DNA of 64,000 nt, from NCBI RefSeq assembly GCF_007991655.1, contig NZ_BJYT01000008.1:124001-188000 (forward strand), in the 5' to 3' direction. This document shows positions 815 to 64,000 of the stretch, piece after piece. A model generated the notes under the pieces. The model worked only from the letters and a program-made list of their open reading frames with translations. It was not told the DNA's origin and did no database searches. The stretch is from Segetibacter aerophilus. Its GTDB lineage: Bacteria; Bacteroidota; Bacteroidia; Chitinophagales; Chitinophagaceae. The translations under genes and the position numbers were made by a program. Every line of letters starts with the position of its first letter. The stretch's first letter is position 1.

Positions 815-1370
815 GAAGGTGTCGTTTGGAGTACTTTAGCCAGATCGTAAAGACTATTCCATAGATCGCCATCTTAAAAATATATTTATGAAAGAAGTCT
901 GCTAGGGGAAAGTTGTGCATGTACATCCAGGTTAGACCATAACATCTGAAAGCATTTAGTACAACGACAGCAATGGTACCAAACATTATGTAAGGCAATT
1001 GCCGTTTTAAGTTAGGTGGAAAACAGCAAAGAAAACCAATGTAAAGCACGATCAGTTCTAAGCCGTTGCAAGAGTCAGCTATTGCTACCAGCTTTTTTCC
1101 CTCTGCGTGCACTGCTATATAACTCATACCTTGCTTGTTTACCTTCTCTTCCGTGATAATCATTTTTTCATCCATAAGATTAGAATACAAAAAAGCTGCG
1201 GCACTAGCGGTAGCAAACGTTAACTGCTGGTCGGGAATACGTACGGGAAATAAAACAAGGTGATACAGCAGCTTCCAGGCTAAGAAGATGATCAACGCTT
1301 TTACAAGAAAAGCTCGGGTATCTGCAGGCATCTGCTTAATAAAACTGGTCGGTGCTATGTTCTTTATCAT
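807..1370 (-). CDS. Exosortase family protein (XrtX/XrtF-like)
   Basis: A 187-residue polytopic membrane protein with the three hallmark residues of exosortases/archaeosortases in order: Cys101 in DSCNGLEL, Arg142 in NAFRCYG, and His161 in FFHKYIFK. Exosortases are membrane cysteine transpeptidases that recognise a C-terminal tripartite sorting signal on secreted proteins, cut it, and hand the protein to a surface glycan. They are typically encoded beside exopolysaccharide loci, as here, where a Wza/Wzc locus begins 730 bp away in the divergent direction. The short length is typical of the compact Bacteroidota forms rather than the long EpsH type. I cannot choose between XrtX and XrtF subfamilies by eye, and I found no substrate with a sorting signal in the window. 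Confidence 0.85.
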   Translation of the reverse strand: MIKNIAPTSFIKQMPADTRAFLVKALIIFLAWKLLYHLVLFPVRIPDQQLTFATASAAAFLYSNLMDEKMIITEEKVNKQGMSYIAVHAEGKKLVAIADSCNGLELIVLYIGFLCCFPPNLKRQLPYIMFGTIAVVVLNAFRCYGLTWMYMHNFPLADFFHKYIFKMAIYGIVFTIWLKYSKRHLHV

Positions 1371-2098
1371 CCGCTTTTTTGATAATTAAGTTAGGCGAAT
1401 ATAATGTAGTGAGACAGGTGACAGCTTTTTCTAATAATTCTTCAATGCCACCGGCCTCGAAATTCTCTATTTAAGGAGAATGTCAACCGTCAATCGGGCA
1501 ATAGCAACAGTCTCTCTTACTATTGTAATAGAGCCTTGGGATGCAAAAGGCTTTGGATCCCTTATTGTTTAATCCTAGTGCCTCTAGCACCAATAGTGCC
1601 TTAAACAACCTGTAGTTTTGCTATTTTCTGGCATTATAGACTTTCTTGCTACCATAGCCTCCACCTGCAGCCTCTTTTTCTTCCTAAGTATAGGTAGAGT
1701 AAATTGACGGTAATGTTTAGATAGCGATATTTGATCAAGTTATGCTGAAAGGATAACAAACATCTAAAAGTTTTCTCTCTTCATCAGCGCCACTTAGCTT
1801 CAATAACAGTGTTTTCTAATAAATTAATGTCTACAATAGAAGTTAAAACTTTAAGGTTCTAAACTATCAATCTTGCTATTTCAAATCTTAAGCACCTTTT
1901 AATATATATTCGCACCTCGAAAATAAAGACCGCCGATGGGGCTGAGATGGCGAAGCTATGGGTAAAATGCAAAGAGTTGACATCGAAAAAAGCATAAAAA
2001 GAAATAATAGGTCAGAGAAAAGAAATATAGTTGGGAGGTGAAAGTTCTAAAATAGCACATTTTATTCATTAAATAATAGTTCTCGTAAATTCTAAAAA
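1371..2098. other. Intergenic region, 728 bp, no convincing gene
   Basis: It separates the divergent exosortase pair from polysaccharide locus 1 and should carry both promoters, though I cannot place either with confidence. All frames are broken by stops. One imperfect hairpin, GGGATGCAAA with TTTGGATCCC, lies near 1537-1562. An SD-like GGGAGGTG near 2033 heads no ORF. The length and lack of coding suggest a long leader or decayed sequence. Confidence 0.55.
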
Positions 2099-4366: not shown

Positions 4367-6715
4367 TTGGACACTCTTCAAATAAATAACTCAACCCGAA
4401 AACAAAAGGTTGATGATGATATTAATTTACAAAAAACATTAGGACATGCGTTGCATTTCTGGTGGTTGTTTCTAATATTTTTAGTAATCGCCGTCTTTTT
4501 CGCTTTTCTGTACCTAAGGTATAGTACTGCCCAATACCGAGTAGCGGCTAAAATATTAGTAAAAGACTCTAAAAAAGGCGGCGGCGCACCCGGGATGGCG
4601 ATGTTTGAAGAACTAGGGCTACTTGGCGGAGAAAATTCAGTAGACAATGAAGTAGAGCTTTTAAAAAGTAGAACTTTAATGGAGAATACTGTAAATGCCT
4701 TACAACTAAACGCACGATACTATGTGCAGGGCAACGTAAAACAGTCAGAAGCTTTTGTTAAGCGACTTCCTTTCGCGCTTCGAATTACAGATTTAAAAGA
4801 AGATAGTATTCAAAAACCAATCGACTTACTATTTAGCGGTCTAAATAATAACGAATTTAAACTTGTCTATAATAAAATAGAAAGGAAACACAACTATCAG
4901 GATACCATTGCTTGTTCATTTGGCAATTTATGTTTCTCAAAACTTCCGGAAAAAAGTAGTGGGATTTTAGAAGAATACCATATTGTCATAAACCGTCCTG
5001 ATAATACTGTCGCAGAGTTTCAGCAAAAATTAAGTATCGCACCCACTAGTAAGACAGTAAGTACAATAGACCTTACACTTGAAGACGCGGTTCCTGAAAG
5101 GGCAGAATTACTTCTTAATACACTAATAAGTATTTATAACCAAATGAATACTGAGGATAAAAACAAAGTTGCTGATAGTACAATTAAATTCATTGACAAC
5201 CGGCTGGTTTTTGTGACAAGAGAATTAGGGGATGTAGAGCAAAACATACAACAATTTAAACAGCGTAATCAGTTAACAGATCTTTCAGTTCAAGGAAAGC
5301 TCCTATTAGAAAATTCCAGTGATTATTTTAAAGATTTGTCTAAGATTGAAGTGCAAATATCAATTATCCAGTCCCTACAAAAGTATTTGGAAAATGAACA
5401 AAATACTAGCCGTACGATACCGGCAGGTTTGGTGATCGAAGATCCAACTTTTGCTTCGCTTATTGAAAAGTATAACACTTTACAGTTAGAAAAAGACCGA
5501 CAACTGCAAACGACCACAGAAACTAATCCAGTGGTCCAAAGGTTGGTAGTAGGAATTGCCAACTTGAGGGCTGATATTGTCGCAAATCTGGGTACAGTAA
5601 AAAGGTCTATGGAAATTTCCCGCGCCCAGTTAAAAAACCGAACAAACAGTTTTGAAAGCGAGATACAACAGGTACCACGAAAAGAAAGGGCTTTTTTGGA
5701 AATATCACGTCAGCAAGCTATAAAGCAGGAGCTATACTTGTATTTATTAAAAAAGCGTGAAGAAACGGCCGTAACTAAGGCTGCTAATTTAAATAATGCG
5801 CGAATAGTTGATAGTGCAAAAACTCAACCTGTTCCGTTTTCGCCGAAGCGACAAATGATCTACCTCGCTGCCTTGCTCGTAGGCCTGGTTGTGCCAACCT
5901 GCCTCCTGTATGGCCGAAGCTTGCTAAATAACAAAATAGAAACAAAAAAAGATATTACTGCTGTTAGCTCAATACCTATTCTCGGCGAAATAGGTAGAAG
6001 TCCTTATGCTAATGCACTGGTTGTTAAAGATAATCCTCGAGATCCGGTTGCAGAACAATTTCGTCTGTTACGTACAAATCTTGATTATATTTTACATGCT
6101 AAATCAGGTGGAAGGGTAATTATGGTGACATCAAGTGTAAGTGGTGAAGGGAAGTCGTTCTTATCACTTAACCTTGCTGCTATGCTTAGCCTCGGTGGTA
6201 AAAAAGTGGCCCTACTTGAATTCGACTTGCGGAAACCTAAATTATCTAAATATTTAGGATTGGAAGATAGCTTTGGCTTAAGTAGTTATCTTATAAAGAG
6301 AACCAATGATATAAATACCCTTGCTCAAATTATTCCGGGAATGGAAAGTCTTTATTTATTAGGTTCTGGTGCGATACCTCCTAATCCCGCAGAACTTATA
6401 ACGGGTACCCAAACAGTAGAACTATTTAAACAGTTAAAAGAAAATTTTGACCATATTGTAGTTGATGTGCCGCCCGTTGGAGTTGTAGCAGATGCTTTAT
6501 TGCTTGCAGTATATGCCGACATTTGTCTTTACGTAGTCAGGCAGAATTATACTTTCAAAAACGTACTTGAATTCGTTGATGAATTATACCAGCAAAAGAA
6601 ACTTCCAAATCTTGGTATTATCGTTAACGATATTAAAAAGCAAAAAGGCTATGGTTATGGTTACGGTTATGGCTATGGTTATGGTTACGGGAGTTACGGG
6701 CAGGAAAAGAGTTAA
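4367..6715 (+). CDS. wzc: Wzc-type polysaccharide co-polymerase and tyrosine autokinase (locus 1)
   Basis: A 782-residue inner-membrane BY-kinase. TM1 lies at about residues 28-50, a Wzz-like periplasmic domain with coiled coil at about 60-490, and TM2 at about 495-515. The cytoplasmic kinase domain has Walker A SGEGKS (Lys596), Walker A' with Asp620 in LEFDLRKP, and Walker B with Asp700 in VVDVPP. The C-terminus is a Tyr-Gly repeat with eight tyrosines, the expected autophosphorylation cluster. The family controls chain length and export by cycles of phosphorylation with a cognate phosphatase; no phosphatase gene is seen here. The start is TTG: no ATG precedes TM1 in frame, and the first in-frame ATG is near 4594, inside the periplasmic domain. 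Confidence 0.9.
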   Translation: MDTLQINNSTRKQKVDDDINLQKTLGHALHFWWLFLIFLVIAVFFAFLYLRYSTAQYRVAAKILVKDSKKGGGAPGMAMFEELGLLGGENSVDNEVELLKSRTLMENTVNALQLNARYYVQGNVKQSEAFVKRLPFALRITDLKEDSIQKPIDLLFSGLNNNEFKLVYNKIERKHNYQDTIACSFGNLCFSKLPEKSSGILEEYHIVINRPDNTVAEFQQKLSIAPTSKTVSTIDLTLEDAVPERAELLLNTLISIYNQMNTEDKNKVADSTIKFIDNRLVFVTRELGDVEQNIQQFKQRNQLTDLSVQGKLLLENSSDYFKDLSKIEVQISIIQSLQKYLENEQNTSRTIPAGLVIEDPTFASLIEKYNTLQLEKDRQLQTTTETNPVVQRLVVGIANLRADIVANLGTVKRSMEISRAQLKNRTNSFESEIQQVPRKERAFLEISRQQAIKQELYLYLLKKREETAVTKAANLNNARIVDSAKTQPVPFSPKRQMIYLAALLVGLVVPTCLLYGRSLLNNKIETKKDITAVSSIPILGEIGRSPYANALVVKDNPRDPVAEQFRLLRTNLDYILHAKSGGRVIMVTSSVSGEGKSFLSLNLAAMLSLGGKKVALLEFDLRKPKLSKYLGLEDSFGLSSYLIKRTNDINTLAQIIPGMESLYLLGSGAIPPNPAELITGTQTVELFKQLKENFDHIVVDVPPVGVVADALLLAVYADICLYVVRQNYTFKNVLEFVDELYQQKKLPNLGIIVNDIKKQKGYGYGYGYGYGYGYGSYGQEKS
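6647..6691 (+). repeat. GGYTAY hexanucleotide repeat coding the Tyr-Gly tail
   Basis: Seven consecutive Gly-Tyr codon pairs (GGY/TAY with third-base variation) at the 3' end of the Wzc gene, residues 761-775. The near-perfect 6-bp periodicity could change copy number by slippage without shifting frame, which would alter the number of phosphorylatable tyrosines. Confidence 0.85.
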
Positions 6716-26015: not shown

Positions 26016-26094
26016 AGTCGTCCCACTCCAAAGTAATAACAAGCTTAGAAAGCAGCTTTCGCCATATGTTTTTTGCCGAGAATAATTCCTACAA

Positions 26095-26124
26095 GTACAA
26101 GTGAGTGACACAACGAAGCTCAAC
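26095..26124 (+). repeat. Dispersed intergenic box, copy A
   Basis: The exact 20-base core GTACAAGTGAGTGACACAAC (26095-26114), followed by GAAGCTCAAC. It lies between the convergent rfbA and DUF6569 genes. In this copy the position that is ATG elsewhere reads AAG, but the following CTCAAC matches the copy near 31721, so similarity runs about 10 bases past the core. Confidence 0.85.
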
Positions 26125-26158
26125 GAAGAGCACATGTTAGCACCATGATACCTGCCTG

Positions 26159-30277: not shown

Positions 30278-31678
30278 ATGGACTACCGGATAGAAAAAGA
30301 CACAATGGGCGAAGTAAAAGTTCCTTCACATGTTTATTGGGGTGCTCAAACCCAAAGAAGTATAGAGAACTTTCAGATCGCGCAGGATATTAATAAAATG
30401 CCGAAGGAAATAATTAAAGCTTTTGCCTACCTAAAAAAAGCTGCGGCTCTTACCAATTGCGATGCTGGTGTGCTTTCAAAAGAAAAGGCAGATTTAATCG
30501 GCCAGGTATGCGATGAAATTTTAGAAGGTAAACTAGATGACCAGTTTCCTTTGGTCGTATGGCAAACCGGTAGCGGAACACAAAGCAATATGAATGCAAA
30601 CGAGGTGATCGCTTACCGCGGCCACGTTATAAAAGGTGGCCAGTTAACAGACAAAGAAAAGTTTCTTCATCCGAATGATGACGTAAATAAATCTCAGTCC
30701 TCAAACGATACTTTTCCCACGGCAATGCACATTGCTGCATACAAAATTTTGGTGGAAGTTACCATTCCGGGCATCGAAAAGCTAAGGAACACGTTGGCAC
30801 AAAAAAGCAAGGATTTTATGCAGGTGGTTAAAATAGGCCGTACCCATTTTATGGACGCCACCCCTTTAACCCTCGGGCAAGAGATCAGCGGCTATGTCAG
30901 CCAGTTGGATCATGGGTTAAGAGCTATTAGAAATACTTTAGCCCACTTAACCGAACTTGCCTTAGGTGGAACTGCCGTTGGTACAGGTATCAACACTCCT
31001 AGTGGGTATTCTGAAAATGTAGCAAAGCACATTGCGAATCTTACCGGCCTTCCTTTTATAACCGCCGAAAATAAATTCGAGGCACTTGCTGCTCACGACG
31101 CAATAGTTGAAGCGCACGGCGCACTTAAAACCGTCGCTGTCAGTCTCATGAAAATAGCAAACGACATTCGTCTATTGTCTTCAGGTCCGCGCAGTGGTAT
31201 TGGCGAAATCTTCATTCCTGATAACGAACCCGGTTCATCCATCATGCCCGGTAAGGTTAATCCTACTCAAAGCGAGGCGCTCACCATGATTGCGGCGCAG
31301 GTTTTAGGCAACGACGTGTCGGTAAACGTTGGTGGAGCAATGGGTCATTTTGAGCTCAACGTTTTTAAACCCGTAATGATATATAACTTCCTGCATAGCG
31401 CGAGGCTCATCGGCGACGGCTGTGTAAGCTTCAACGATAAATGTGCGGTTGGCATACAGGCAATCGAAGCAAACATTAAAAAGCACGTTGACAATAGCCT
31501 GATGCTTGTGACTTCTTTAAACACAAAAATCGGTTATTACAAAGCAGCAGAAATTGCACAAAAAGCCCATAAAGAGGGAACTACTTTAAAAGAAATGGCC
31601 GTAAAGCTTGGCTATGTAACTCCTGAGGAGTTTGATCAGTGGGTTGTTCCTGCGAATATGGTGGGAGAAATAAAATAG
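30278..31678 (+). CDS. fumC: Class II fumarate hydratase
   Basis: A 466-residue fumarase/aspartase superfamily enzyme with the signature [16 protein letters not shown], the [13 protein letters not shown] active-site region and the [16 protein letters not shown] loop. The sequence fits class II fumarase rather than aspartase. It interconverts fumarate and malate in the TCA cycle. Full length. Confidence 0.96.
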
Positions 31679-31709
31679 TAGACATATTATGTTACAAACA
31701 AATATCCCT

Positions 31710-31735
31710 GGTTGAGCATTGTTGCGTCGCAGTAC
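31710..31735 (-). repeat. Dispersed intergenic box, diverged copy F
   Basis: Read on the minus strand it is GTACTGCGACGCAAC followed by AATGCTCAAC. The core is five bases shorter than the 20-base form, but CGACGCAAC matches the variant at 58054 and the ATG-CTC-AAC part matches copy A. A 10-codon frame (MLNQGYLFVT) starts at that ATG and ends at 31687. Confidence 0.6.
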
Positions 31736-31804: not shown

Positions 31805-31946
31805 ATTGTTTACAGAGGAAGTATGAACTTTCATTTCTTGTATAAAACAGCTTTCATCTTCTTACCGGAATTACAGCAGTTGAAATCTTTCCCTGCATAA
31901 TATACATTTTGGTTGAATTGGAAAAAGCTCCATAGAAAAGCCCAAA

Positions 31947-31976
31947 GTACAAGTGAGTGACACAACAATGTTGAAA
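31947..31976 (+). repeat. Dispersed intergenic box, copy B
   Basis: The exact 20-base core (31947-31966), then A and an ATG at 31968 opening a 15-codon frame, MLKKFVPLVPTIIFQ, stopped at 32013-32015. With copy F it forms an inverted pair about 210 bp apart in the same gap. Confidence 0.85.
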
Positions 31977-32087
31977 AAATTTGTGCCGCTTGTCCCGACA
32001 ATAATCTTTCAATAAAACAGCTTACCAGGAAACACGGTAAGCCTTTCATGTTTCTAAAAATTATGTTATGAGAAGGGTGAATGGTTA

Positions 32088-32135: not shown

Positions 32136-34106
32136 ATGAGTTCTCATTCGAATAGTAAGATCTCTGCTGCCGGAATTTTAATAGCACTTGGAATAATATA
32201 CGGCGACATTGGTACTTCTCCCCTCTACGTTTTAAACGCAATTCTTAAAGATAGGGCAGTAACAGATCTACTGATCCTGGGCTCTTTATCTTGTATCATC
32301 TGGACACTTACACTGCAAACAACCATCAAATATGTGATATTAACCTTGAGGGCAGACAACCGGGGAGAGGGCGGAATATTTTCGCTTTTTGCATTGGTAC
32401 GAAGAAGGCGCAAATGGTTGGTATTTGCCGCAATGATAGGAGGGGCCGCGCTACTAGCCGACGGAATGATTACACCGCCAATCTCGGTAGCATCTGCGAT
32501 AGAAGGGTTAAGAAATATTCCCGCTCTGGCTGCGATAACAGACACCACCATTATTGGGATTGTGCTGGCTATCATTGCTGCGTTATTCTTTGCGCAACAA
32601 TTTGGTACGGCCTCCATAGGAAAACTGTTTGGACCGGTTATGACCTTATGGTTTCTCATGCTTGGTATTTTAGGTGCTAATCACATTGGTGATTACCTGC
32701 ACGTCTTTAAAGCATTTAACCCGTTGTACGCAATTCGACTCCTTACCCGCTACCCCCAAGGGTTTTGGCTACTGGGTGCAGTGTTCCTTTGCACCACAGG
32801 TGCGGAGGCGTTGTATTCTGACTTGGGCCACTGCGGAAAAGGAAATATCAGGGCCTCGTGGGTGTTTGTAAAATCTTGCCTGATCATTAATTATCTAGGG
32901 CAAGGAGCATGGTTGCTTTCCAATTATAAAGGCATGGTGATTTCTGAAGAAATGATCACAAAAGGCTTCAATCCTTTCTATGGGGTAATGCCCGAATGGT
33001 TCGTTATAATTGGGATAGTAATAGCCACTACTGCCGCCATCATTGCCAGCCAGGCTTTAATTAGCGGATCGTTTACCTTGATCAGTGAAGCCATAAGGTT
33101 GAACCTCTGGCCCAAAATGAAAATAAAATATCCTTCGGAGGCGAAGGGCCAGCTCTTTGTTCCAGGCATTAATGCAGTGCTTTTTGTTGGCTGTTGCGGC
33201 ATTGTACTCTATTTTAAAAAGGCAACGAATATGGAGGCCGCTTATGGCCTGGCCATTACCATGTGTATGATTGCGACAACTATTCTATTTGCAAATTTCC
33301 TCGTGCTACACAGAACTTTTAGGGTCTGGATTTATCTTTTCCTTGTTGTATATCTTTCTATTGAAATTTCTTTTTTGGCAGCCAACCTCGACAAGTTTCC
33401 ACACGGCGGTTTTGTAACGCTGATTGTTGGGGGCGGTCTTTTTCTGATCATGTATGTGTGGTATCGCGCACGAAAAATTAAAAACCGGTACGTGGAATTC
33501 GTGCGGGTTGAACACTATATCTCTAACCTGCAGGAGTTAAGCAACGACAAGACAATTCCTAAATATGCAACCCACCTTGTTTACCTGACTAGCGCGGACA
33601 ATCCAAATGAGATAGAACACAAAATCATTTACTCTATTCTCAACCGCAAACCCAAGCGGGCCGATATCTACTGGTTTATTCATGTAGATACTTTAGACGA
33701 TCCCTATACGATGGAGTATAAGGTTGATCACATCATACCGAATGACATTATCCGGGTAGAATTCAGGCTTGGCTTTAGAGTGCAGCCGCGCATCAATCTC
33801 TTGTTCCGCAAAGTGGTCGAGGACCTTGTTGCAAATAAAGAGGTGAATGTTACCAGCCGGTACGAGAGCCTTGAACGTAATAATGTGATTGGAGATTTTC
33901 AGTTCATCAAAATGGAGAAGTACCTAAGCCAGGATAACGAACTTCCGTTTGCGGAAAAACTAATCATGCGATTTTACTTTTGGTTGAAGGAAGTCAGCTT
34001 ATCCGAGGAACGCGGCTTTGGTCTTGATACCAGTAACGTAAATGTTGAAAAATTCCCTCTCATCGTGGCTCCTGTTACAAACGTAAAACTTAGACGACTT
34101 GAATAG
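32136..34106 (+). CDS. kup: KUP-family potassium uptake transporter
   Basis: A 656-residue protein with about 12 TM segments in the first 430 residues and a cytoplasmic C-terminal domain. The family N-terminus GIIYGDIGTSPLYVLNAIL and the RADNRGEGGIFSLFAL motif are clear. It imports K+ driven by the proton gradient. It stands alone with its own terminator-flanked region upstream, and is followed by a 267-bp gap before locus 2 in which I see only a possible hairpin ACTTGC/GCAAGT near 34170-34200. Confidence 0.95.
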   Translation: MSSHSNSKISAAGILIALGIIYGDIGTSPLYVLNAILKDRAVTDLLILGSLSCIIWTLTLQTTIKYVILTLRADNRGEGGIFSLFALVRRRRKWLVFAAMIGGAALLADGMITPPISVASAIEGLRNIPALAAITDTTIIGIVLAIIAALFFAQQFGTASIGKLFGPVMTLWFLMLGILGANHIGDYLHVFKAFNPLYAIRLLTRYPQGFWLLGAVFLCTTGAEALYSDLGHCGKGNIRASWVFVKSCLIINYLGQGAWLLSNYKGMVISEEMITKGFNPFYGVMPEWFVIIGIVIATTAAIIASQALISGSFTLISEAIRLNLWPKMKIKYPSEAKGQLFVPGINAVLFVGCCGIVLYFKKATNMEAAYGLAITMCMIATTILFANFLVLHRTFRVWIYLFLVVYLSIEISFLAANLDKFPHGGFVTLIVGGGLFLIMYVWYRARKIKNRYVEFVRVEHYISNLQELSNDKTIPKYATHLVYLTSADNPNEIEHKIIYSILNRKPKRADIYWFIHVDTLDDPYTMEYKVDHIIPNDIIRVEFRLGFRVQPRINLLFRKVVEDLVANKEVNVTSRYESLERNNVIGDFQFIKMEKYLSQDNELPFAEKLIMRFYFWLKEVSLSEERGFGLDTSNVNVEKFPLIVAPVTNVKLRRLE

Positions 34107-35233: not shown

Positions 35234-37636
35234 ATGAGTTACCCTATAAATCCATCAGAAAACGAATTTGCCATCCCGGCAGGTAGTCAGTTTGATGTAA
35301 AAAAGTTTATCTATAAAATCATTGGTGTATTGCCGTGGTTTATAGTAAGCATTGTGCTTTGTATAATTGCTTCTAAAATTTATTTACGGTACACCATGCC
35401 TGTAAGTAAAATTTCTGCTTTCTTATTAATTAAGAGCCAGGAAGATGGGGGAAACTCTGAGTACAAGACTTTGAAGGAAATGGGACTTGTTACGCAAAAC
35501 AACGACGTTCAGAATGAAATGGACATTATCCGTTCTTATGCGTTGATGAGAAAAGTGGTGGACTCTCTACACCTTAATGTAAATATTTACAAAGAAGGGC
35601 GCGTGACCGCTTCTCCCATTTATGGCGAAAAGTCTCCTTTTTCAATCAAAGTAGTTGAGCCAAATCCAGGGGCAACGCCCAGTGGTTTCAAAATAGCTTT
35701 AAGAGAAAATGATTTTTTAGTAGGGGATAAGGGGTCAGAAAAAAGATATGCATATGGACAGGTTTTTGAAACAGACTTCGGTAAAATTAGCATTGAACGT
35801 AATCCTAATTTAAAACTTGATCCTAATGGTTTTAGGGTCTTTTTTAGTGATAAGGAAGGCGAAACAAAAAAGTATAAAAACGCAATAGATGTAAGGTTGA
35901 CGCATGATATGGGAGGTATCATAGAAATATCGATGGCCGACGAAATCCCGGAGCGCGCAATTATGATTGTGAACAAGTTGATTGATGTTTATAACAATGC
36001 GGGTCTGGATGATAAAAACGTGGCGAGTATCAGAACCATCAAATTTTTGAATGATAGAATTGATACGGTAGCACGGGAGTTAAATGCAGTTGAGTTAAGT
36101 AGCGCGAGGTTTAAATCTTCAAACAAAATCAATTCTATATCTGCTGAAGCCACTTCATACTTAGGCCAGGCCGTAACCGTTGACAACAAGAAGGCCGACC
36201 AGATGGCCCAGATAAGAGTGTTAGAGTCGTTAGAGAACTACATTACCGCCTCCAGAGGAAGTAATGATGCCATCCCTTCAAGCTTAGGCATTGGTGAACC
36301 TACACTCATTTCGTTAATCACTACTCACAATACCCTCACCCAAGAAAGGCAGAGGATGGCTTTAAAGAGTACTGACTCGGACCCACTTGTCGCCAACTTG
36401 AACTCGCAGATAAGAGACATTAGGGAAAATATTATTAGCAACATAAAGGCGCTTAAAGGAGGATACAACAGTAATTTAAACCAGGTACAAAACACTTACG
36501 GAAACATTGAAAGTAAGATTTCGGGTTTGCCGACAAAAGAAAAACAATTGGTTAACCTTTCCCGCCAGGTTAATCTTAAAGAGTCATTGTATTTGTACCT
36601 ACTTCAAAAGAAAGAAGAGTCACAGCTCTCACTTGCATCCAACATAAACAACACCCGTCTGGTGGATAGCGCTTTTAATACCGGTGTCATTAGGCCGGTA
36701 GCTTCACAAATACAGTTGTTTGCATTGCTTATTGGTCTAGCTATTCCAACGTTGATATTGGTCTTGCGTGATTTCTTCAACAATAAAATTAGCGACCGGA
36801 AAGAAATTGAAGAGGGAACTACTGTTCCGATTTTGGGTGAACTTTCGTACGAAAAGAATAAGAAAAACATTGTTATTGATAATAAAAGCCGTACGCCAAT
36901 TTCTGAGCAGTTTAGACTTATTCGCACCAACATCCAGTATATGGGTGCGGAGAAATCGGTCAAGACTATCCTGTTATCTTCCTTTATGAGTGGCGAAGGA
37001 AAGAGTTTTGTATCGCTTAACCTGGCAAGTAGTATGGGTATTACGGGAGCAAAAACTGTCATCCTCGAGTTTGACCTGCGCAAACCAAAGCTGAGTAAAT
37101 ATCTAAATGTGCCCGGCGAATACGGTATTTCAAACTACATTATTAAAGACATACCGGTAGAAGACATTATCAAAAAAGTTCCAGGGCACGAACATATTCA
37201 TGTAATTAGTTCAGGACCTATACCACCAAACCCCGCCGAGTTACTACTTAGTCCAAAGACGGAGTACCTGATGAAATACCTTCGAGAAAATTTCGATGTA
37301 ATCATAATAGACACAGCTCCGGTTGGATTAGTGACGGACGCATTATTGCTAGAAAAATATGCAGACCTCACTATGTTTATCGTCAGGCATAAATATTCAT
37401 CTAAAGCCGTTATTCCGTTTGTAGAAAAGCTGAACAGGGAGAAAAAAATTAAATCGCTTGCCCTTGTGGTAAATGGTATCAAAAATGATACTTCGTTTGG
37501 ATATGGGTATGGAGGATACGGCTACGGCTATGGATATGGCTACGGTTATGGCTACGGTTACGGGTATTACGTGCAGGATAAGAAGAAGGGTTTTCTCGAA
37601 AACCTGCTGGGCGGATTTAGTAAAAAGGACGCTTAG
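35234..37636 (+). CDS. wzc: Wzc-type polysaccharide co-polymerase and tyrosine autokinase (locus 2)
   Basis: An 800-residue BY-kinase, same architecture as the protein at 4367: TM1 at about residues 32-52, a Wzz-like periplasmic domain with coiled coil, TM2 at about 493-515, and a kinase domain with Walker A SGEGKS (Lys590), Walker A' Asp614 in LEFDLRKP and Walker B Asp693 in IIDTAP. The C-terminal cluster has 12 tyrosines and is followed by a further 20 or so residues ending in a basic, hydrophobic stretch that the first paralogue lacks. It should drive polymer-length control and export for locus 2. Confidence 0.92.
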   Translation: MSYPINPSENEFAIPAGSQFDVKKFIYKIIGVLPWFIVSIVLCIIASKIYLRYTMPVSKISAFLLIKSQEDGGNSEYKTLKEMGLVTQNNDVQNEMDIIRSYALMRKVVDSLHLNVNIYKEGRVTASPIYGEKSPFSIKVVEPNPGATPSGFKIALRENDFLVGDKGSEKRYAYGQVFETDFGKISIERNPNLKLDPNGFRVFFSDKEGETKKYKNAIDVRLTHDMGGIIEISMADEIPERAIMIVNKLIDVYNNAGLDDKNVASIRTIKFLNDRIDTVARELNAVELSSARFKSSNKINSISAEATSYLGQAVTVDNKKADQMAQIRVLESLENYITASRGSNDAIPSSLGIGEPTLISLITTHNTLTQERQRMALKSTDSDPLVANLNSQIRDIRENIISNIKALKGGYNSNLNQVQNTYGNIESKISGLPTKEKQLVNLSRQVNLKESLYLYLLQKKEESQLSLASNINNTRLVDSAFNTGVIRPVASQIQLFALLIGLAIPTLILVLRDFFNNKISDRKEIEEGTTVPILGELSYEKNKKNIVIDNKSRTPISEQFRLIRTNIQYMGAEKSVKTILLSSFMSGEGKSFVSLNLASSMGITGAKTVILEFDLRKPKLSKYLNVPGEYGISNYIIKDIPVEDIIKKVPGHEHIHVISSGPIPPNPAELLLSPKTEYLMKYLRENFDVIIIDTAPVGLVTDALLLEKYADLTMFIVRHKYSSKAVIPFVEKLNREKKIKSLALVVNGIKNDTSFGYGYGGYGYGYGYGYGYGYGYGYYVQDKKKGFLENLLGGFSKKDA
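37499..37570 (+). repeat. GGNTAY repeat coding the second Tyr-Gly tail
   Basis: Alternating Gly and Tyr codons (residues 756-779) with 12 tyrosine codons, one Gly-Gly interruption near the start and one Tyr-Tyr at the end. Longer than the equivalent tract at 6647. Confidence 0.85.
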
Positions 37637-41976: not shown

Positions 41977-42041
41977 CAGGTACATACCCGCTCTCGTTGT
42001 AGTAGTATTTTTCAATTTTCTGGTACCGGCTTTTGATCTTT

Positions 42042-42071
42042 AATAAGCATTGTTGTGTCACTCACTTGTAC
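42042..42071 (-). repeat. Dispersed intergenic box, copy C
   Basis: The exact 20-base core on the minus strand (42071 to 42052), then A and an ATG (42050-42048) opening a 12-codon frame MLIKDQKPVPEN, stop at 42012. The gap between two plus-strand genes is 178 bp. Downstream similarity to copy D extends over AAAGAT and AAGCCGGT, suggesting an element of about 45 bp. Confidence 0.85.
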
Positions 42072-42154
42072 AATTATATCTTCCGGCATCGCCACGCAGG
42101 CAAGCCATGAAATTCGAATAGCAGTCTGCATATAGCAGCAGTTTAAAACACCCT

Positions 42155-58005: not shown

Positions 58006-58045
58006 ATGCTAATAATTTCTATGAACCCAACCACAGGTTTCTATT

Positions 58046-58073
58046 CATCATTCGTTGCGTCGCACTCTTGTAC
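58046..58073 (-). repeat. Dispersed intergenic box, diverged copy E
   Basis: On the minus strand GTACAAGAGTGCGACGCAAC (58073 to 58054), 16 of 20 identical to the core, then GA and ATG-ATG (58051-58046) opening a 10-codon frame MMNRNLWLGS that stops at 58019. It lies in the 157-bp gap between two plus-strand genes. Confidence 0.7.
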
Positions 58074-58162
58074 TTTGAATGTTTCCGCGGCAATTTTAAC
58101 ATAATCAATAATTCAACGTAGAATAGTTCGTTTTAAGAATAGGCTTTCATAAACTACTATTA

Positions 58163-59545: not shown

Positions 59546-59678
59546 AGCTTAATCGGAGATATTTTAAAATTGGTAATGAGCAAAGCATAAAAAAGCTCAT
59601 TAGAAATATTACAGATAAACGGAGCGTCGCAACAATGATAAATAGAATTCCTGCGGTTGGAACAAAAAAAAATCTGTA

Positions 59679-63908: not shown

Positions 63909-63934
63909 TGTTTGTCACCGGCTTCAAAACATCT

Positions 63935-63964
63935 TTCGACATTGTTGTGTCACTCACTTGTACC
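63935..63964 (-). repeat. Dispersed intergenic box, copy D
   Basis: The exact 20-base core on the minus strand (63964 to 63945), then A and an ATG (63943-63941) opening a 13-codon frame MSKDVLKPVTNIR, whose stop lies at 63902-63904, just inside the end of the GNAT gene. Similar to copy C beyond the core (KD..KPV in both frames). Confidence 0.85.
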
Positions 63965-64000
63965 ATTTTTTATTCTTAGTTCTTCTAAGGAAACATAGTC

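Follow-up and report, generated by a model that had tools for sequence, protein, structure and literature searches.

The stretch of DNA analysed here, a window of 64 kb at positions 124001-188000 of contig C8 of genome G000, contains seven copies of a directional, non-palindromic, intergenic repeat that is about 76 bp long and consists of four boxes (Table 1). Two of them, copies B and F, sit between fumC, which encodes a class II fumarate hydratase, and a gene for a Kup-like potassium transporter, copy F lying directly past the fumC stop codon as the head-to-head partner of copy B. An orthologue of copy B occurs at the matching place in a second genome, G006, and by-eye reading places a box-like sequence 3' of fumC in G006, G009 and G001. 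An earlier note on this DNA had drawn attention to a start codon next to the box: an ATG one base past CAAC in copies B, C, D and F, opening the frames MLKKFVPLVPTIIFQ, MLIKDQKPVPEN, MSKDVLKPVTNIR and MLNQGYLFVT, an ATG two bases past CAAC in copy E (MMNRNLWLGS), and GAAGCTCAAC in copy A where the other copies have ATG. All of these coordinates and peptides were correct on re-check. The seventh copy, which the note had missed, also carries CAAC-A-ATG and opens a 14-codon frame, MINRIPAVGTKKNL. The ATG therefore stands one base past CAAC in five of the seven window copies and two bases past it in one, and is absent from one. A separate 12-bp repeat of the GGYTAYGGNTAY type was seen at window positions 6635-6699 and 37514-37578; its translation would be Gly-Tyr.

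Table 1. Repeat copies, the boxes of copy B and the neighbouring genes in the window.
Feature	Position	Strand	Basis and remarks
Copy A, subfamily I, without ATG	26081..26145	+	nhmmer E 1.5e-8
fumC, class II fumarate hydratase	30278-31678		score exceeds the fumC_II cut-off
Copy F, subfamily IV, core GTACTGCGACGCAAC	31686..31731	-	nhmmer E 6.6e-4
Copy B, whole element, subfamily I	31927..32003	+	nhmmer match 31941-31996, E 8.2e-10, lengthened by eye to take in units 1 and 4
Copy B unit 1, GCTCCATAGAA	31927..31937	+	by eye from the 363-copy alignment; consensus GYTGAATARAG
Copy B core 20-mer (unit 2), GTACAAGTGAGTGACACAAC	31947..31966	+	with paired heptamer GTGACAC
Mini-ORF of copy B, including stop	31968..32015	+	peptide MLKKFVPLVPTIIFQ; not supported as a gene
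Copy B unit 3, GTTGAAAAAAT	31970..31980	+	its opening G completes the ATG
Copy B unit 4, GCTTGTCCCGACAATA	31988..32003	+	by eye; consensus GCYGGTAACAAAAA
Kup-like potassium transporter gene	32136-34106		top match kup, score under the kup cut-off
Copy C, subfamily I	42017..42080	-	nhmmer E 1.5e-12
Copy E, subfamily II, GTGCGACGCAAC	58020..58084	-	nhmmer E 1.5e-9
Seventh copy, subfamily III (GGAGCGTCGCAAC), core AACGGAGCGTCGCAAC	59618..59669	+	nhmmer E 4.5e-5
Copy D, subfamily I	63911..63973	-	nhmmer E 3.3e-10

Read in its own direction, the element begins with unit 1 (GYTGAATARAG), followed by a 20-bp core (GTACAAGNGNGYGACRCAAC), by unit 3, which is GYTGAATARAG again, and by unit 4 (GCYGGTAACAAAAA). 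With the core numbered 0-19, 334 of 363 aligned copies had the start of unit 1 between -20 and -18, and 348 had that of unit 3 at +23 or +24. Unit 4 began at +41 to +43 in 346 copies, 301 of which had it at +41 or +42. Units 1 and 3 are thus direct copies of one another placed about 42 bp, or about four helical turns, apart, and the spacer between units 3 and 4 has highly variable bases. In the core-anchored alignment, conservation extended from about -19 to +57. The earlier note had allowed that the codon-like pattern might only reflect a longer DNA repeat, and this reading was supported, although the length it proposed, about 45 bp, was too short. The KPV that it had seen in the peptides of copies C and D is present in both, but its source is a DNA box, GCYGG..ACAAAAA, that is conserved regardless of frame. 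The cores fall into subfamilies I (AGTGACACAAC), II (GTGCGACGCAAC), III (GGAGCGTCGCAAC) and IV, the last with a shorter left part (...TGCGACGCAAC); GAGCGTGGCAA occurs in a few copies.

Core positions 11 and 15 were coupled. In a set of 209 copies, T-A was found 100 times and C-G 100 times, with 7 copies listed for other combinations; in an 84-copy subset the counts were 48, 35 and 1, and the signal was lost when the partner position was slid along the core. If the two half-sites were read independently, then mixed T..G and C..A cores should be common. The fact that they are rare points to base pairing or to a requirement for strict symmetry, and descent relationships among the subfamilies could also contribute to the coupling. 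The covariation of this pair argues for an RNA element, a small RNA or UTR element working in transcripts. The remaining evidence runs against it. No RNA folding signal was found on either strand (mean z -0.20 to 0.17, 60 copies sampled per folded window). In the 64-kb window nothing reached the Rfam gathering score, and a pair of weak matches close to copy B (E 0.11 and 0.57) missed the box. In gaps between genes of the same direction, moreover, 19 copies were sense and 25 antisense relative to the genes. We therefore regard a function in RNA as very unlikely.

The anatomy of the element accounts for the ATG. Subfamily I has RAT after CAAC and unit 3 opens with G, so that an ATG arises where the two meet; in subfamily II, unit 3 often begins one base later and the ATG is lost. 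In the genome from which the window was taken (hereafter the source genome), ATG was present at +21 in 59 of 81 T-A copies versus 24 of 61 C-G copies, and unit 3 started at +23 in 63 of 84 copies with ATG and at +24 in 39 of 59 copies without it. We used source-genome counts for these frequencies because the 363-copy alignment includes loci L143-L248, which were fetched by a pattern containing GATGTTGA and bias the frequency of ATG. Among 143 source-genome copies picked by the core alone, 84 had ATG at the exact place, where random bases would give it in about 1 in 64.

This frequency favours the proposal of the earlier note that the box is a ribosome-entry or leader sequence, each copy of which starts a functional, very short peptide. 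In-frame stops between +24 and +57 also point in that direction, amounting to 30 of 1008 codons in ATG copies and so lying below the 6.5% of the flanks, and in the spacer from +33 to +41 they were fewest in frame 0 (7/252 codons, versus 12/252 and 13/168 in frames 1 and 2). Set against column shuffles, however, the three frames showed a like deficit (30 vs 38.7, 69 vs 84.5 and 58 vs 68.0 stops), and the depletion is thus not specific to the frame of the mini-ORF. An ATG was absent from 59 of the 143 source-genome copies, and where one was present the frame varied in length between 1 codon and 36 codons or more. Divided by three, the number of bases separating ATG and unit 4 left remainders of 2, 0 and 1 in 50, 29 and 5 of the 84 ATG copies, which shows that the KPV box is not kept in frame. 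Codon positions 1, 2 and 3 had mean entropies of 1.559, 1.585 and 1.582, the third position being no more variable than the second. Neither of the two signs of coding that the note had proposed to look for, third-position bias and frame-preserving indels, was therefore seen, and no frame-specific depletion of stops was found either. The element also lies in both orientations relative to genes, which argues against this proposal. We note that pooled in-frame stops were raised at codon +30 (24 of 143 source-genome copies, p 1.8e-5); this excess is not evidence against an ORF, since it comes from copies without ATG and only 5 of the 84 ATG copies have that stop. Coding descent of the whole element, with a frame running through the core, was dropped on the frame tests.

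Orthologous sites bear on the same question. We compared 28 source-genome copies from five stretches with G006 and G009, and both flanks could be aligned in 37 comparisons. A copy was present in 32 of these (17/19 and 15/18 in the two genomes). Over 31 anchored pairs, which share source-genome loci and are non-independent, core identity was 0.91, a value somewhat inflated because the core had helped to identify the orthologous copies, while the flanks stood at 0.31 and 0.38, near saturation. Identity was 0.66 over the three bases past the core and 0.43-0.54 over the other boxes and the spacer, where gapless anchoring lowers the values. The ATG was shared by both members in 15 of the 31 pairs, absent from both in 9 and present in one only in 7, that is, gained or lost. 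Of the 15 pairs that share it, 12 had frames of unequal length, for example 16 to 6 codons, or 5 to 26, where 26 was the reading limit. The best case for a peptide is copy F, whose 10-codon frame is kept in G006; at its place in G009 and G001 the sequence continues, by eye, beyond the 10-codon point. On this evidence the mini-ORF is most likely not translated, and we consider it extremely improbable that the copies start functional peptides. The core itself can change type at a fixed site: at L069:5699, the G009 orthologue has a T-A core versus C-G in the source genome and G006. Among the aligned absences there were no clean empty sites. These absences look like longer deletions or rearranged gaps, as at L063:18794, where G009 has shortened or rearranged gaps. 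There was likewise no signal of target-site duplication, same-locus and cross-locus matches being similar.

The element is abundant. The pattern GTACRAGNGNGYGACRCAAC, with at most one mismatch, matched 536 times in the 5.89-Mb, 79-contig source genome (265 forward, 271 reverse), and the reversed pattern, used as a control, matched 0 times. A whole-element profile, built iteratively starting with 80 aligned copies, gave 209 matches at E<0.001 in 1.246 Mb of source-genome sequence; when that sequence was reversed, no match reached E<1. The resulting density of about one copy per 6 kb is an upper estimate, since these stretches were partly picked for known core matches; the window has 7 in 64 kb. 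In G001 we counted 172 copies in 375 kb, about one per 2.2 kb, on contigs picked because they contained matches. Exact cores were found in all nine other genomes of the genus that were compared, in numbers from 2 to 888, the highest count coming from a 4.1-Mb relative, and in 11 of 26 sampled genomes from other genera of the family Chitinophagaceae. They were found in 0 of 23 sampled genomes from other families of the order. A shorter half-pattern occurred in 34 of 147 sampled family genomes, the source genome included (27 of 100 genera), with a control count of 0. The cultured relative Segetibacter koreensis DSM 18137 also has the element, at L169 and L204. On the question of whether the element is phage-borne, 29 stretches of a viral sequence collection matched. 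In the literature searched, 12-base strings of the core occurred only in papers on other organisms, judged by title and abstract, and no paper there combined Segetibacter with intergenic repeats; such repeats could be in print under another name.

Copies of the element avoid genes and favour some kinds of gap. Although ORFs cover 86-93% of the three stretches examined for context, with genes taken as mechanical ORFs of at least 80 codons, 58 of 64 copies were intergenic. Of the 57 that could be placed between two genes, 44 lay in same-direction gaps, 8 in convergent gaps and 5 in divergent gaps, the last being under-used (5/57 copies versus 23% of gap bases, p 0.007). In 10 of the 25 antisense copies in same-direction gaps, a gene stop lay within 50 bases of the core end, at about the end of unit 4. 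The copies were also ordered with respect to one another. Close pairs were arranged head-to-head, with unit 4 outward, in 15 of 17 cases at E<=1 in the source genome, and at E<=0.01 in 12 of 14 there and 33 of 37 in G001. Compact inverted pairs recur in G172, which belongs to another genus (L372-L378), for example with cores 64 bp apart. Adjacent copies no more than 3 kb apart pointed in the same direction in only 4 of 66 cases in the source genome and 11 of 119 in G001; beyond 3 kb the proportions were 35/88 and 13/33. In a contiguous 360-kb run, 41 of 64 steps alternated, versus 32.3 in shuffles (p 0.02). Opposed neighbours could result from deletion between direct repeats or from a functional need for opposition. 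We observe that the scarcity of same-direction neighbours reaches about 3 kb, far exceeding the size of a single element. Typed head-to-head pairs less than 300 bp apart mixed T-A and C-G cores in 10 of 11 cases in the source genome and 16 of 28 in G001. When neighbours were compared by core type, only this source-genome group stood out. Paired cores are thus often of differing type and no long perfect hairpin is kept, which could mean that perfect palindromes are avoided or that the pair has distinct left and right ends. On contig C1 of G172, the first 100 of 170 listed core matches comprised, by eye, 34 plus and 29 minus below 1.9 Mb and 10 plus and 27 minus beyond, so that strand use may be regionally biased in that genus.

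If the element were a landmark of the host chromosome, a site for a dedicated protein of the nucleoid, of supercoiling or of transcription-unit boundaries, then selection would hold it at hundreds of loci and its orientation would be informative. The core retained at orthologous sites between saturated flanks fits this explanation, as do the rarity, in two species, of neighbours less than 3 kb apart that share a direction, the gene stops close to the core end of antisense copies and the helical spacing of the two direct GYTGAATARAG boxes. The spread of exact-core counts within the genus, on the other hand, would be odd for an essential site, as would the small number in G008, where the profile gave 5 matches, a figure that is not a copy number, as at most 150 candidates per genome were scored in the genus search. 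Neither a candidate binding protein nor a candidate mobilising enzyme was found. We regard such a landmark as possible but doubtful.

The element might alternatively be an atypical REP mobilised by a cognate RAYT, namely a TnpA-Y1 transposase of Bacteroidetes subclass 2.6. The source genome has three Y1 matches, and both Y1 loci of G001 (L298 and L299) have an outward-pointing copy on each side. Such flanking is expected in G001, however, because copies are so dense there. At 15 of 20 Y1 loci, including all 10 from G006, G009, G003, G004 and G013, no element copy at E<0.01 was found in the stretch of 3-5.5 kb taken at each locus; the loci with a copy were the two in G001, one in G005, one in G022 and, weakly (E 0.001), the one on C4 of the source genome. 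Nor do Y1 genes track the element across genomes: G007 has 81 cores and 0 Y1 matches, and G008 has 2 cores and 7 Y1 matches. A RAYT link was thus not supported, and we think it unlikely that the element is the cognate of such an enzyme. At L307 (G000:C4:1-4500), several ORFs around the Y1 transposase ORF (1105-1683, minus strand) share, in translation, a motif resembling F[ST].F[DN]KT. This suggests a different local repeat, and that repeat could be the transposase's actual partner.

Taken together, these results lead us to consider it probable that the ATG and the short frame it opens are incidental to an interspersed DNA repeat that is itself non-coding. A putative protein would recognise the boxes in DNA form, or in DNA that is transiently single-stranded and bears a small hairpin. 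Past spread may have been REPIN-like, as inverted pairs, and selection would now keep the element in place at many loci. We hold with more doubt than confidence a further possibility, that the repeat represents a new class of interspersed element in Chitinophagaceae: a directional four-box site, under selection at hundreds of loci between genes in each genome, its neighbours mostly opposed, and read by a putative protein that organises the chromosome or marks the borders of transcription units. As a peptide gene the locus is ordinary, and that reading dissolves into a DNA repeat. The repeat is what deserves notice, being abundant, kept at orthologous sites amid surroundings that have turned over, and non-random in orientation. 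Identifying its putative protein reader would reveal how a genome-wide repeat is maintained in genomes with no evident RAYT partner.

The closest parallels are found among the REP and REPIN families. The portions of two studies that deal with them describe many short intergenic copies arranged as head-to-head inverted doublets and singlets, mostly between same-direction or convergent genes, with a family size that varies widely across species (PMC3116915, PMC3733652), and a portion of a third describes BIMEs as REPs in alternating orientation (PMC2817692). Our element resembles these families in its high copy number, its mainly extragenic position, its inverted close doublets and its patchy distribution. 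It differs from them in structure: it lacks a 5-13 bp stem with a GTAG/GTGG or CGTC foot, has only a GYG-W-CRC heptamer of 2-3 pairs with no GTRG at the hairpin foot, measures 76 bp and contains direct 11-mer repeats. Unlike REPINs, its doublets are no better conserved than its singlets, the median bits being 38.0 vs 35.7 (p 0.39) in the source genome and 37.2 vs 35.6 (p 0.71) in G001; these are model scores, whereas the measure in PMC3116915 is pairwise identity. A further difference is that no linked RAYT (Y1 transposase) gene was found for the element. CGTC-tagged REPs, according to the relevant part of PMC3733652, occur in Bacteroidetes among other phyla, mostly as head-to-head dimers and without transposase association. 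Head-to-head pairs are shared with our element, the reverse strand of whose subfamily II includes CGTC, but the 8-9 bp stem and 4-5 base loop of those REPs are not. Part of PMC6006769 describes TnpA-Y1 subclass 2.6 genes of Bacteroidetes as flanked by atypical repeats that lack GTRG, have weak secondary structure and occur in further copies across the genome. By that description, the element is similar in its occurrence in Bacteroidetes, its lack of GTRG, its weak structure and its many copies, and it differs in having no consistent link to a Y1 gene. The element is thus REP-like in its distribution, and we do not class it as a REP family.
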